Part shown: positions 5,604 to 22,813 of the stretch, one piece after another
How the letters are laid out: each line of letters begins with the position of its first letter
Numbering within the stretch: position 1 is the first letter of the stretch
From: Nitrososphaerota archaeon
Lineage (GTDB): Archaea > Thermoproteota > Nitrososphaeria > Nitrososphaerales > Nitrosopumilaceae
Length of the DNA stretch: 45,006 nucleotides
Direction: 5' to 3'
Assembly (NCBI GenBank): GCA_005877205.1
Contig: VBPL01000014.1
Span: forward strand, 1 to 45,006
The notes under the pieces: model-generated
What the model saw: the letters and a program-made list of their open reading frames with translations, nothing else
Databases searched by the model: none
What the model was told of the DNA's origin: nothing
Made by a program: the position numbers and the translations under genes

Positions 5604-6180
5604 TTACTGAGGATAAAATACTCTTCCTTGATCTGATTTTAGCGCATATATGGTAGCATGATGAGTCTCAAATAGACGTCGAATCCAGTCTCCCCGATTC
5701 ATTCGAAGTTTCGATATATCGTACGGGCATATAACAGAGCCGTCAAAGGTAGAAAACCTTGAGTGAAACTCACGCTCTATTTTCATCTCTGCAAGTATGC
5801 CCTCTGGCTTGCTAATATCTGCGATTATTCTGGCTACAATTCTATACGGAGGTCTTGCAGATTCCAGGATTTTTTCGAGTAATTTTTTTGCATATTTTAT
5901 CATAACTTCCGTTTCGTTTGTTAGACGAGGAATCTGAAAGATATGGAGGTTTTTCTTTAGAAATTGCTTGACAGGAATTCCGCTATTAATCATTTTGAGA
6001 ATTACTAGCCCTGAATCCATTTCAGACGCATATATACAGCTGTCTCCCATCCCCCAGGCCGTTTTTGAGGAAATGAAACTGAATTCTTTGTGCGTGTTCC
6101 TCATCATCATAAAGCATTACAATATGTTTCTTGCCAAAAAACGAGTCTACAAACTTTAATGGCACACTTTGCTGGCTCAT
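5604..6180 (-). pseudogene. MEDS-domain sensor-like gene with a frameshift
   Basis: Two minus-strand frames together make one protein like the gene at 9105-9674. Frame one starts at ATG 6180 (MSQQSVPLKFVDSFFGKKHI, then VMLYDDEEHA) and stops after NGLGDGRQLYICV. Frame two carries GMGDSCIYASEMDSGL through to YALKSDQG at 5604. Dropping one G from the G5 run (C5 on the plus strand at 6051-6055) joins them as NGLGMGDSCIYASE, matching the paralogue's NGLMKGESGIYLTS. The family is MEDS (DcmR-like sensory domain, a KaiC/RecA-related fold), with the PPYRIVARIIADIS block at about two-thirds. The indel may be a sequencing error or a real loss. Confidence 0.7.
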
Positions 6181-6591: not shown

Positions 6592-8040
6592 TCAACTAAC
6601 ATCTAGTTCAAGAAAAATTGTTTTTGTGACAAGGCCATCAGAAGCACTTATCCCAAGAGTATAGTTGCCACTGACTGTACCATAATTTTGTAAAAATAAT
6701 TGTGCCGTATGAGAGGAGGAGAGATCTAAAACATTTGAAGAAAATTTAACTGTCATGTTGCCAAAACCGGCAGTTGGTGTTATTGAACTAGACGCGTTTA
6801 GGAAAACTCGATTCGAACTATACGGATTCTGTCCGGTAACTTCCAAATTTATCACGTTTTCTTTTGATGTATCATTTCTTAATACGATCTTTTTTGTATC
6901 CGCACTGATTCCGAATGGGATCTCAATGTTTCTGTCTACTAATCCAATTTTGTCTGTGTTCCATTCAGTAAACCAGAGTTTTTTATCGTCAAAAGGATCC
7001 AGGGCAATATTAAGGGGGTAGGTGAGGTAGCCATCTTGTGGAAGCGATGGTATGTTGTATTCCGTTAGGGTTTGGTTGTAGATGTCAAAATAGGCTAACT
7101 TGTTGCCTTCGTGTTCATTAAACCACAAACCTTTGTCGTTACTAACGCCTCGAATCCAAAAGGGAAGAGTAGTGGCGTGAAAGATGTTTTGAGAAGTAGT
7201 ATATCTTACTATGTCACCCGAACTTAATTTATACTTTGTAAGAAAACTCGTACCATGCTCGGTAAGCCATATTACACCATCTTTTATGATTAGGTCTGTC
7301 GGTGACGAAAGTGACATCTTCTTGGATGTAACCTCGAAAGTCTTAGTTATGTTCTTCACCAGCCCATTATCCTCGATTATTTTGTATTTAACAATTTTCT
7401 GCATAGCCATTTCCGTAATCCAAATAGAATCATCTTGTAAAAACAGACCAGCAGGAGTGGTACCACTACCTAGGTCAAACGATGATATTTTGTATCCATC
7501 GTTTCCTATCTTTTCTATGACACCAAGTGCGTCCCCGCTCAATGTTGTAAACCATATCTTCCCATTGTTAGATGCCTTCATCTGAAATGCAGAGCCACTT
7601 TCTGATTTAATCATATGAAATGTCCTCTTCGTAGTATCAAGTGTCCATATGGATTTAGTTCCGAGCGGTGAGAACCATATTACTCCATTATTGTCTTGAA
7701 CGATTGTCCAGACCATAGTAGAATTTCTTGCCAAGTTACTAGATTGTGAATTTTCATCGTTGATAGGATACTCCCTTATCTTTCCTGACTTGGACTCTAG
7801 ACTAAACAGATTATTGGTTGTTGAAGAAGCAGCCCAGATAATGCCTTGTCTGTCAACGATTATACCATTAGGCCTGGAGCCTGAAGGAAGCTGGTATTCT
7901 TCAATGTAGGAATTCTGATTTTTGTATGTTATACTACTAGTAGATTCATTCTGTTGGGAATTTATTTGCAGGTATCCAAATACGCTAATTGCCACACCAA
8001 TAACTATGATAATTACTCCAATTGATTTTCTCGATAACAA
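6592..8040 (-). CDS. Membrane-anchored Vgb/streptogramin-lyase-like beta-propeller protein
   Basis: The 482-residue protein begins with a basic start and one hydrophobic helix (about residues 7-24), so it is probably anchored outside the cell. Residues about 50-375 are propeller-like repeats with signatures such as PNGIIVDRQGIIWAAS, GVIWFSPLGTKSIW, GKIWFTT and KLWFTEWNTDKIG, as in virginiamycin B lyase (Vgb) and related NHL/SMP-30 propellers. The last 100 residues are an Ig-like or CARDB-like beta domain. Members in archaea are generally not antibiotic lyases, and the ligand is unknown. The start is a TTG at 8040; no strong Shine-Dalgarno sequence is present. Confidence 0.75.
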   Translation of the reverse strand: MLSRKSIGVIIIVIGVAISVFGYLQINSQQNESTSSITYKNQNSYIEEYQLPSGSRPNGIIVDRQGIIWAASSTTNNLFSLESKSGKIREYPINDENSQSSNLARNSTMVWTIVQDNNGVIWFSPLGTKSIWTLDTTKRTFHMIKSESGSAFQMKASNNGKIWFTTLSGDALGVIEKIGNDGYKISSFDLGSGTTPAGLFLQDDSIWITEMAMQKIVKYKIIEDNGLVKNITKTFEVTSKKMSLSSPTDLIIKDGVIWLTEHGTSFLTKYKLSSGDIVRYTTSQNIFHATTLPFWIRGVSNDKGLWFNEHEGNKLAYFDIYNQTLTEYNIPSLPQDGYLTYPLNIALDPFDDKKLWFTEWNTDKIGLVDRNIEIPFGISADTKKIVLRNDTSKENVINLEVTGQNPYSSNRVFLNASSSITPTAGFGNMTVKFSSNVLDLSSSHTAQLFLQNYGTVSGNYTLGISASDGLVTKTIFLELDVS

Positions 8041-8127: not shown

Positions 8128-8652
8128 GTGTTGAAGAAGCGCTATTACATCCTCTTGCCCGTTTATTTGAGCTTCTTTATTGGTATAGGCGTCTACGAGG
8201 TAATGTATCCACCATTCAGTACAAACTCAGTAAAAATTGGAAATTATGAACTCCAAATAGAAACAACGCCTTCCATACCAGAGGTCGGAAAAGACACCAA
8301 GATTCATTTTCATTTCATGGACCAAGATGGAAAAGATATTGACAAATTCAGAACGGGTCTTAAGATTTATCACAATGATGATTTTCTTCATTCCTTTCCA
8401 CCAACGGAATACAATGGTGGAAATTCTGATATTGATTATATTTTTGAAGAATCTGGGAACCATGTGCTAAGGGTAGACCTATTTGATCTCAGGACTGGAA
8501 TCATGGTTTCATATGCGTTTAATGTTACAGTTCTTACTGCTTACGGAATGATCTTTTCTTATCTTATCATGGCTGGTGCGGCGGGGGCTATTGGTATAAT
8601 CACAGCCATTGTCATTTTCCAAAAGAAGCTGAAAACAAAGAACAAATTATAA
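8128..8652 (+). CDS. Membrane protein with extracytoplasmic Ig-like domain
   Basis: This 174-residue protein has an N-terminal hydrophobic helix (about residues 6-22), a beta-rich domain (about 35-130) with PSIPEVGKDTKIHFHFMDQD and a later GNHVLRVDLFDL strand, then a C-terminal helix (about 138-162) and a KKLKTKNK tail. The layout and the PxVG..T.I.F.F..Q.G pattern resemble the FixH/YtkA-like or copper-resistance-type Ig domains common on archaeal surfaces. I do not assign a function. The start is GTG 8128, with a TAATATAGG box about 24 bases upstream. It diverges from the Vgb-like gene. Confidence 0.6.
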   Translation: MLKKRYYILLPVYLSFFIGIGVYEVMYPPFSTNSVKIGNYELQIETTPSIPEVGKDTKIHFHFMDQDGKDIDKFRTGLKIYHNDDFLHSFPPTEYNGGNSDIDYIFEESGNHVLRVDLFDLRTGIMVSYAFNVTVLTAYGMIFSYLIMAGAAGAIGIITAIVIFQKKLKTKNKL

Positions 8653-8655
8653 CCA

Positions 8656-8784
8656 AAAGGCGTGGCCCCCTTGTGCAGGACACTTGGAGATTGCCTCCTT
8701 TGAACCAACGCCTTTGCGTTTCGTTCACATATTCTTCCTGCAGGACCACGCTTTGTCAAGCCATTGGTCGTGGCTCCACGCTCA
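8656..8784 (-). ncRNA. Candidate structured non-coding RNA of about 125 nt
   Basis: This GC-rich island in AT-rich surroundings folds into fully nested helices. In plus-strand coordinates these are: a terminal stem GCGTGG 8660-8665 with CCACGC 8776-8781; TGCAGGA 8674-8680 with TCCTGCA 8736-8742; inside that, GGAG 8686-8689 with CTCC 8695-8698, GAAC 8702-8705 with GTTC 8723-8726, and AACGC 8707-8711 with GCGTT 8716-8720; then CCACG 8746-8750 with CGTGG 8769-8773. A TATA-like box at 8804-8815 is placed about 26 bases before the 5' end on the minus strand, and a T-rich tail follows the 3' stem. It does not match 5S rRNA, tRNA, SRP or RNase P hallmarks. A palindromic mobile remnant is the alternative. 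Confidence 0.45.
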
Positions 8785-8803
8785 TTATAATAATAATGAA
8801 TTT

Positions 8804-8815
8804 CAAATTATTTAA
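8804..8815 (-). promoter_or_regulatory. TATA box of the ncRNA candidate
   Basis: The minus strand reads TTAAATAATTTG, centred near 8810, so transcription would start around 8784, exactly at the terminal stem. It lies just after the stop codon of the small membrane protein upstream. Confidence 0.4.
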
Positions 8816-8819
8816 GAAT

Positions 8820-9014
8820 TCACTCAAGCATATTCCAGAATCTTGAATATCTAAAGAGGCCAACCCAACCTGAAATAAAAAATGCAAGTGACAAACCAAA
8901 GAGAATGTACAGATCTCTCTTACGATGGGCAAGATCTAGATTTAGAAAGATAAAAGCGCCCATGCCTATGAAACCGAACCAAAGAACTAGCCTCCCAATA
9001 CGTTTCCAATTCAA
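8820..9014 (-). CDS. Small two-helix membrane protein
   Basis: This 64-residue protein has two hydrophobic helices (about residues 8-26 and 37-54) joined by a short basic turn (AHRKRD). The N-terminus MNWKRIGR and the loop are basic, which suggests both are cytoplasmic. The family is unknown to me. The start is a TTG at 9014. It lies directly upstream of the ncRNA candidate on the same strand. Confidence 0.5.
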   Translation of the reverse strand: MNWKRIGRLVLWFGFIGMGAFIFLNLDLAHRKRDLYILFGLSLAFFISGWVGLFRYSRFWNMLE

Positions 9015-9104: not shown

Positions 9105-9674
9105 TTAGACAAGCAGAGTGGCTCTTGCCTTATTGGGTCCATTGGCATAGATTACTGCGTGGTGGTTTTTCATTAACGAATCCATCCACTTTAACCGACT
9201 TTTCTCAGGAACTTCGCAATAATGATACGTACACAGAAAAGAGCCATCAAGTGAATCAAATCTAGCGTGAAGGTATCTTTCCAATGTTAACTCTACAGAC
9301 ATACCCAATTCAGTACTAACGTCCGAAATTATTCTGCCGACTATACGATATGGCGGCTTTAATTCTGAGAGCATTTTTTGCATAAATTTTTCAATTCCTA
9401 AAAGAATTCCACCTGGATCTTCATCAAACTTTGGAAGTTGTAGAATTTGTAGCGATTTATTCTTCAGATACGGCCAAATGTCCATGTTGAATTCCACCAT
9501 CATGTCGATAATTCTTTCTGGATCTTTACTAGTGAGATAGATGCCGCTCTCACCCTTCATAAGGCCATTTTCTAAGAATCGTAACTCTATCATCTTCCCG
9601 AATGTCTGGTCATTACAGAGCAACAAGATATGTTTTTTTGCATCAAGCGAGTTAACAAATTGTAATGGTTCCAT
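9105..9674 (-). CDS. MEDS-domain sensor-like protein
   Basis: The 189-residue product resembles the MEDS domain, a sensory module named from DcmR of methylotrophs and found in many methanogen and thaumarchaeal regulators. It has a RecA/KaiC-like core without an obvious Walker A. Visible blocks are MEPLQFVNSLDAKKHILLLC, then FLENGLMKGESGIYLT, PPYRIVGRIISDVS and LDGSFLCTYHY. No DNA-binding domain is attached, so it may act as a partner protein. I chose the ATG at 9674 because the paralogue at 5604-6180 aligns from this point; a TTG at 9695 extends the frame by seven residues. Confidence 0.65.
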   Translation of the reverse strand: MEPLQFVNSLDAKKHILLLCNDQTFGKMIELRFLENGLMKGESGIYLTSKDPERIIDMMVEFNMDIWPYLKNKSLQILQLPKFDEDPGGILLGIEKFMQKMLSELKPPYRIVGRIISDVSTELGMSVELTLERYLHARFDSLDGSFLCTYHYCEVPEKSRLKWMDSLMKNHHAVIYANGPNKARATLLV

Positions 9675-9822
9675 AATCTTACATAACAAGAACAATTCAT
9701 AACGAATGTTTAGCTAAGGATGCAAATTGTTGTCAAGTTAGCTAAGTTGAGAATTTATATCTAAAGTATCTGGTCCAGAAGTAACTTTTATCAGTTTCAA
9801 TGATAACATGTGAGATTAAATT

Positions 9823-22144: not shown

Positions 22145-22813
22145 ATGTCAGAATCGAGTCCAAACTTTAGTAACAGGTTTCCATTCTACGGACCACAAGG
22201 AAGATTGGTACTTGTTGACAGTGCGCTTGAAGCAGTAAGCAGAGGCTCTACAACAATAGGAATCAAGACTCCAAAGTTCGCCATTGTATCAAGTCAAATA
22301 AAACCAACACATCCGCTAATTGAGCCATCTGAAAAAATATTTTCAATCGATTTCCATGCTGGTGCAACCGGCTCTGGATATATTGGAGATATCTTGCAAT
22401 TGATTGATACACTACGACTTGAAGCACAAAGACACAGACTAACATATGAAACCCCAATTGACACAGATTCATTAGCCAAGCATCTCAGCACATTTCTACA
22501 TAACTACACAACTTATGCAGTAAGGCCACAAGCTGCCTCGATAATATTAGCTGGAGCAGATCAGACCGGTATCCAGTTGTACCAAGTTGACCCAAGCGGT
22601 ACGTTCTTCCGCGGTTCTGGATTTGCGATAGGTCAATCCTCCGAGACAGCGCTAGATGTGATCACAAAGGAATACAGTGCAGATATGACACAAGAGAAAG
22701 CAATTGAGCTTGGAAAAAAGGCAATTGAGAAGGCCTTGGGAGAAAAACCTGTTGTTGAGACTGGGATTGTAACTCAAAGCAGCTTTCGCAAGCTACCGCT
22801 TGAGAAAGAATAG
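22145..22813 (+). CDS. Divergent proteasome alpha-like subunit
   Basis: The 222-residue protein is proteasome-fold and closer to alpha than beta. The N-terminus NRFPFYGPQGRLVLVDSALE, then AVSRGSTTIGIKTPKFAIVS, aligns with the alpha signature FSPDGRLxQVEYAxEAVxRGsTxxGI. It lacks the usual leading YDR and has VDSALE where VEYA is normal. The block YSADMTQEKAIELGKKAIEK near the end fits the last helix. No catalytic Thr is exposed. It begins one base after psmB, so the pair is coupled. The main psmA may lie elsewhere; this copy could be a second or regulatory alpha. Confidence 0.75.
   Translation: MSESSPNFSNRFPFYGPQGRLVLVDSALEAVSRGSTTIGIKTPKFAIVSSQIKPTHPLIEPSEKIFSIDFHAGATGSGYIGDILQLIDTLRLEAQRHRLTYETPIDTDSLAKHLSTFLHNYTTYAVRPQAASIILAGADQTGIQLYQVDPSGTFFRGSGFAIGQSSETALDVITKEYSADMTQEKAIELGKKAIEKALGEKPVVETGIVTQSSFRKLPLEKE

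Follow-up and report, generated by a model that had tools for sequence, protein, structure and literature searches.

A conserved family of small structured RNA genes predicted in Nitrosopumilaceae, with several paralogues per genome

Nitrosopumilaceae rank among the most abundant archaea of the oceans and of soil, and account for a large part of global ammonia oxidation. To our knowledge, few of their RNAs are known apart from rRNA, tRNA, SRP RNA, RNase P RNA, and guide RNAs. One reference among small structured RNAs is the Y RNA and YrlA group, found with Ro60, which combines a helical stem with a variable distal part and occurs as several paralogues per genome. Among orphan RNAs, Tan1 is an abundant noncoding RNA of 229 nt from marine group II Euryarchaeota, and Yfr103 is a paralogue family of 290-328 nt from marine picocyanobacteria with measured abundance (PMC5069720). 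In the N. limnia genome paper, one "conserved noncoding RNA", not further specified, is noted as 93% identical to N. maritimus (PMC3043068). Our search of the open-licence PMC literature found no description of the RNA family presented here, of which a passing mention in older work is possible. What is new is the family itself, as the small structured RNA gene is already known as a broad kind.

The locus lies at 8656-8784 on the minus strand of a 45,006-nt stretch of archaeal DNA (contig VBPL01000014.1), hereafter the window. An earlier note had described it as an RNA of six nested helices in a GC-rich island, and the island is evident from a GC content of 0.52 at 8650-8749, where most 100-base segments on either side have 0.31-0.40. 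Folded as the minus strand, 8656-8815 reaches -57.7 kcal/mol, whereas its shuffled versions average -37.9 (z -5.2, 0/200 shuffles); the plus strand folds with a z of -4.7. Across relatives, the counts of G-U versus A-C helix cells are 53:0 in alignment A1 and 76:15 in alignment A5, and the RNA is therefore assigned to the minus strand. Its 5' end falls at 8784-8786 and its 3' end at about 8650-8656, giving a length of ~130 nt. The gene body is aligned across 26 sequences, and it scores 130 bits with covariance model R1 and 84.2 bits with R2, the locus being in the training set of R2. Judged from these comparisons, 8656-8784 is almost certainly a genuine noncoding RNA gene.

The predicted RNA opens with a 5' hairpin (8755-8779), in which 96% of cells are paired across 25 orthologues, with one-sided changes only; in 92% of the 162 loci examined, this 5' segment folds more stably than its mononucleotide shuffles (z below -1). 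The hairpin is followed by a long stem composed of P1 and P2. The 5' strand of P1 (GCGUGGUCC, 8743-8751) pairs with the 3' strand (GGGCCACGC, 8660-8668), with 99.1% of cells paired and two-sided changes at 7 of 9 pairs; the 3' strand is followed by an unpaired C that hardly varies and then by T-rich DNA. P2 joins GCAGG (8737-8741) to CCUGC (8675-8679); in family-wide counts two-sided changes are seen at 6 of 7 pairs, the helix reaching 7 bp in other members and 5 bp here. This stem closes a three-way junction, the variable arm of which, P3 (8701-8727), is built from two stacked parts (UGAAC-GA-AACGC-AAAG-GCGUU-G-GUUCA). P3 covaries within the genus, with two-sided changes at 3 pairs, and beats shuffles in 87% of 150 loci. 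The other arm is the P4 hairpin (8686-8698), which reads GGAG-GCAAU-CUCC in this copy and GAGAG-GNRWU-CUCUC as a family form, and is together with P1 the most conserved element of the RNA. Its pairs are invariant within the genus, so that A1 lends it no support, and its covariation emerges family-wide, with 16 GC versus 39 AU at one pair. The helix set proposed earlier is thereby corrected to the 5' hairpin, P1, P2, the two parts of P3, and P4. RNAfold places a further AT-rich hairpin at about 8781-8800, within the promoter; it is not conserved and therefore lies outside the RNA.

The paired bases, whose lack of conservation had been named as a refutation, are conserved and covary in the relatives. 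The 25-sequence genus alignment A1 yields the 5' hairpin, P1 (9 bp), P2 (5 bp), P3, and P4, with 97.7% of cells pairing and 9 pairs that differ on both sides while remaining paired, which 0 of 500 shuffles match. Slid controls of the same structure drop to 29-43% pairing. Family-wide, 17 of the 21 core pairs show two-sided changes among 59 diverse members, amounting to 90 two-sided cells versus 22 in shuffles (0/500). P2 was missed by RNAalifold on A5, and was supplied by hand and then counted. It is the comparison of sequences that shows the structure and strand of the RNA, the conservation of its promoter, its paralogy, and its distribution.

The TATA-like box reported earlier on the minus strand is TTAAATA at 8809-8815 (minus read 8815-8809), centred ~26 nt before the RNA 5' end, with a BRE-like AATTC immediately upstream. 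TAAATA is invariant in 26/26 aligned sequences, and the exact TTAAATA is present upstream of 129 of 162 family loci, compared with 3 of 318 background windows. The distance from TTAAATA to P1, the closing stem, is near constant at ~62 nt (class medians 62-64 nt), so that the RNA would begin with the first bases of the 5' hairpin segment. The T-rich sequence noted 3' of the RNA end is confirmed, and across the loci T makes up 43% of the first 25 nt downstream. We infer that the RNA is transcribed in cells. Separately, TTCCTATA recurs between the TATA box and the start upstream of many loci of classes C, D, and E, where it may represent the DNA that melts in a class of strong promoters.

By blastn, the locus is single in its own genome and has orthologues in 25 of 36 other Nitrosotalea genomes at 72-88% DNA identity. 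R1, a covariance model trained on class A only (the orthologues of this locus), finds further members elsewhere in the same genomes, including two own-genome paralogues at C47:34331-34461 and C71:349-469; all three copies are 57-63% identical to one another. The family thus comprises 1-4 diverged paralogues per genome, with three in the own genome, and this multi-copy nature, together with its presence in N. maritimus, goes beyond the earlier note. R1 fails to align the 5' hairpin correctly across classes, and model R2, which draws on 59 diverse members, is therefore restricted to the core, namely the P1-P2 stem, the three-way junction, and P4 as GAG-GNRWU-CUC. Independent support for the membership of this locus comes from the recovery of other classes by the class-A-only R1.

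A degenerate DNA pattern of the core, searched over 84,980 species genomes, matched at least 118 genome stretches. Among the 80 matches listed are Nitrosotalea, Nitrosopumilus, Nitrosarchaeum, Nitrosotenuis, and unnamed Thaumarchaeota; a few titles are no more specific than "archaeon", "Nitrososphaeria", or "Nitrososphaeraceae". Of the matches listed, 80/80 pass R1. With R2, 166 of 182 Nitrosopumilaceae genomes match in an order sample (n=350) versus 0 of 168 others, and 44 of 44 versus 0 of 256 in a phylum sample, Nitrosopumilaceae being taken in the GTDB sense with Nitrosotalea included. The proposal that Nitrososphaerales have a lineage-specific small RNA under its own promoter is therefore supported, its range being Nitrosopumilaceae within the order. 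The 16 sampled Nitrosopumilaceae genomes of 182 with no detectable copy, several of them incomplete, raise the possibility that some lineages can do without the RNA or evolve it rapidly. A laxer search gave nothing convincing outside Nitrosopumilaceae; it produced a weak match (30 bits, E 0.0019) in G037, a genome of 2.0 Mb on a single contig, where a TATA box and P1 and P2 pairing are present and P4 is degenerate. In N. maritimus SCM1 (G119, 1,645,259 bp), copies are located on the plus strand at 22,399-22,530 and 690,172-690,300. A weak third copy at 488,162-488,280 (L084 5063-5181) lies beside shikimate-pathway-like genes. Similar low scorers occur in G188, G194, G197, G208, G234, and G035, and it is possible that this type, scoring 24-35 bits, forms a more diverged extra paralogue group.

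In the window, the convergent neighbour is a gene for a predicted 174-aa protein (8128-8652, plus strand) with no Pfam match, whose stop codon abuts the RNA 3' end; it adjoins the RNA in 30 of 32 class-A loci. Upstream, a predicted 64-aa membrane protein (8820-9014, minus) is encoded on the same strand as the RNA and outside its transcript. Further out, the region is flanked at 5604-6110 and 9105-9695 (both minus) by two related proteins that match the MEDS sensory domain (PF14417) below threshold, and a predicted exported beta-propeller protein with a Vgb_lyase match lies at 6592-8040 (minus). Class A, which belongs to Nitrosotalea and includes the locus in the window, forms one clade with 98/98 support. 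Class C is found family-wide between a short-chain dehydrogenase gene and a convergent gene for TFB or a small membrane protein, class D adjoins a PurP-like gene (DUF1246/DUF1297), and class E lies upstream of corA. The remaining loci are unclassed. Other members are L068, near a thermosome gene, and L085, just upstream of a superoxide dismutase (SOD) gene. In genus g21 (L085, L087, L088), the RNA sits 32-34 nt upstream of a same-strand Fe/Mn superoxide dismutase gene, with a TTTTAAAA box in between.

The downstream gene is convergent in 126 of 154 loci, and the median distance between its stop codon and the RNA 3' end is 3 nt. This tight spacing is what a cis element between convergent genes would predict, be it a two-way terminator, an insulator, or an antisense control of the convergent gene; however, such an element, not acting in trans, is improbable given the conserved TATA box at near-fixed distance, the same-strand downstream gene of some classes (corA, SOD, a 250-aa protein), and the occurrence of the same RNA beside unrelated genes. 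The RNA stays constant across loci while the neighbours change, so the neighbours are not the constant. A riboswitch or mRNA leader was also considered and rejected, since a convergent gene cannot have the RNA as its leader, and since corA carries its own AT-rich box ~26 nt before its start in 7/7 class-E loci, so that the RNA is not the leader there. The strongly self-complementary P1 region could recall a mobile palindromic repeat at many sites, a possibility raised in the earlier note, but this is hardly credible: by blastn there is a single copy per genome (except for two contigs in G016), class A is one clade, and no match is found in phages or viral contigs, while the synteny of the orthologues, which keep their neighbours at fixed loci, refutes it. 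The other copies in the own genome are instead old diverged paralogues at fixed loci.

The RNA was further compared with known classes. An Rfam 15 covariance search, as had been recommended, gave 0 matches in the window at the gathering threshold, and the same search on 13 paralogue loci returned only two tRNAs located elsewhere in those loci. The absence of a tRNA, SRP, or RNase P signature was likewise upheld. ARAGORN finds 0 tRNA or tmRNA genes in the window. The archaeal SRP RNA of this genome is matched at C65:137-451 (RF01857, 95.3 bits, just under the 96.5 cut-off) and its RNase P RNA at C2:13631-13906 (RF00373, 177.7 bits), with neither model scoring on 8656-8784. A Y RNA identity was rejected, as the TROVE (Ro60, PF05731) protein is absent from the own genome and from 8 of 9 other genus genomes tested; the lone TROVE (Ro60-like) match in the genus, G007:C204:7856-8530, is possibly contamination. 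A protein-coding role was dismissed because the 66-aa ORF over the region is broken by indels in relatives. The GGAGGU in P4, considered as Shine-Dalgarno or anti-SD mimicry, is limited to class A and absent in other classes. The same holds for UGAUCGU at the class-A 5' end, which resembles box C of C/D box RNAs. A sigma-70 promoter scan is uninformative for archaea.

A guide for RNA modification, of the H/ACA or another type and diverged beyond the reach of Rfam, would also be a small structured archaeal RNA with paralogues. We consider this very improbable, since a weak Rfam search on five diverse loci (E up to 5) gave only chance matches away from the RNA and no guide-RNA match at it, while inspection by eye of ~160 members revealed neither an ANA box in a constant place at the 3' side nor a guide pocket in the P1-P2 internal loop. 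In an H/ACA RNA the ANA box would stand 3' of a hairpin, with the guide pocket about 14-16 nt above it.

We favor a standalone, trans-acting RNA that works within an RNA-protein particle, with a probability of roughly 0.6. As proposed, the gene would produce a noncoding RNA of ~130 nt starting ~26 nt downstream of its own TATA box and ending in T-rich DNA beside the convergent gene. The RNA would fold into the 5' hairpin followed by the long P1-P2 stem, closing the three-way junction with the variable P3 and the fixed P4, and would most likely act in trans. A dedicated protein would bind to P1, P2, and P4, whose sequence is under constraint beyond the need to pair, and the arms that vary from paralogue to paralogue, the 5' hairpin and P3, would give each paralogue its own target or duty. 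Both the protein binding and this division of labour among paralogues are suggested by the pattern of conservation. Constrained helices would, however, also be expected of a ribozyme or a metabolite-binding RNA.

The divergence of 5' hairpins and P3 arms among the 2-3 paralogues of a genome would also suit a small regulator that pairs with mRNAs through its exposed loops (5' hairpin loop, linker, P3), each paralogue having different targets. We regard this as unlikely, because the unpaired stretches are the least conserved and P1, P2, and P4 the most, the conservation being concentrated in the helices and P4 and not in any unpaired seed. A conserved P1/P2/P4 with copy-specific arms fits a protein-binding core better than a pairing seed. 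Extending the RNA-protein particle reading, we tentatively suggest that the RNA might be the core of an undescribed, near-universal Nitrosopumilaceae particle with ancient paralogues in separate roles, one of them kept family-wide beside the TFB gene. That some nine-tenths of the sampled genomes keep such a structured RNA, with conserved promoters and in several copies, points to an unrecognized cellular process, which is open to testing in cultured N. maritimus and N. devanaterra.

Among the described systems, Y RNA and YrlA share with this RNA the helical stem with a variable distal part and the paralogues, but the RNA here has an extra 5' hairpin before its closing stem and no Rfam match. 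Tan1 is similarly a lineage-specific structured archaeal RNA with no assigned function, although at 229 nt and from Euryarchaeota it is set apart from the present RNA by description, not by sequence. Yfr103 likewise has several paralogues per genome of one conserved, structured, lineage-restricted orphan RNA, and is in contrast bacterial, 290-328 nt long, and of measured abundance. SRP RNA and RNase P RNA differ in their length of ~300 nt versus ~130 nt here and occupy separate loci in the same genome, but are, like this RNA, small structured archaeal RNAs, with the kind of RNA-protein function that we propose for it.
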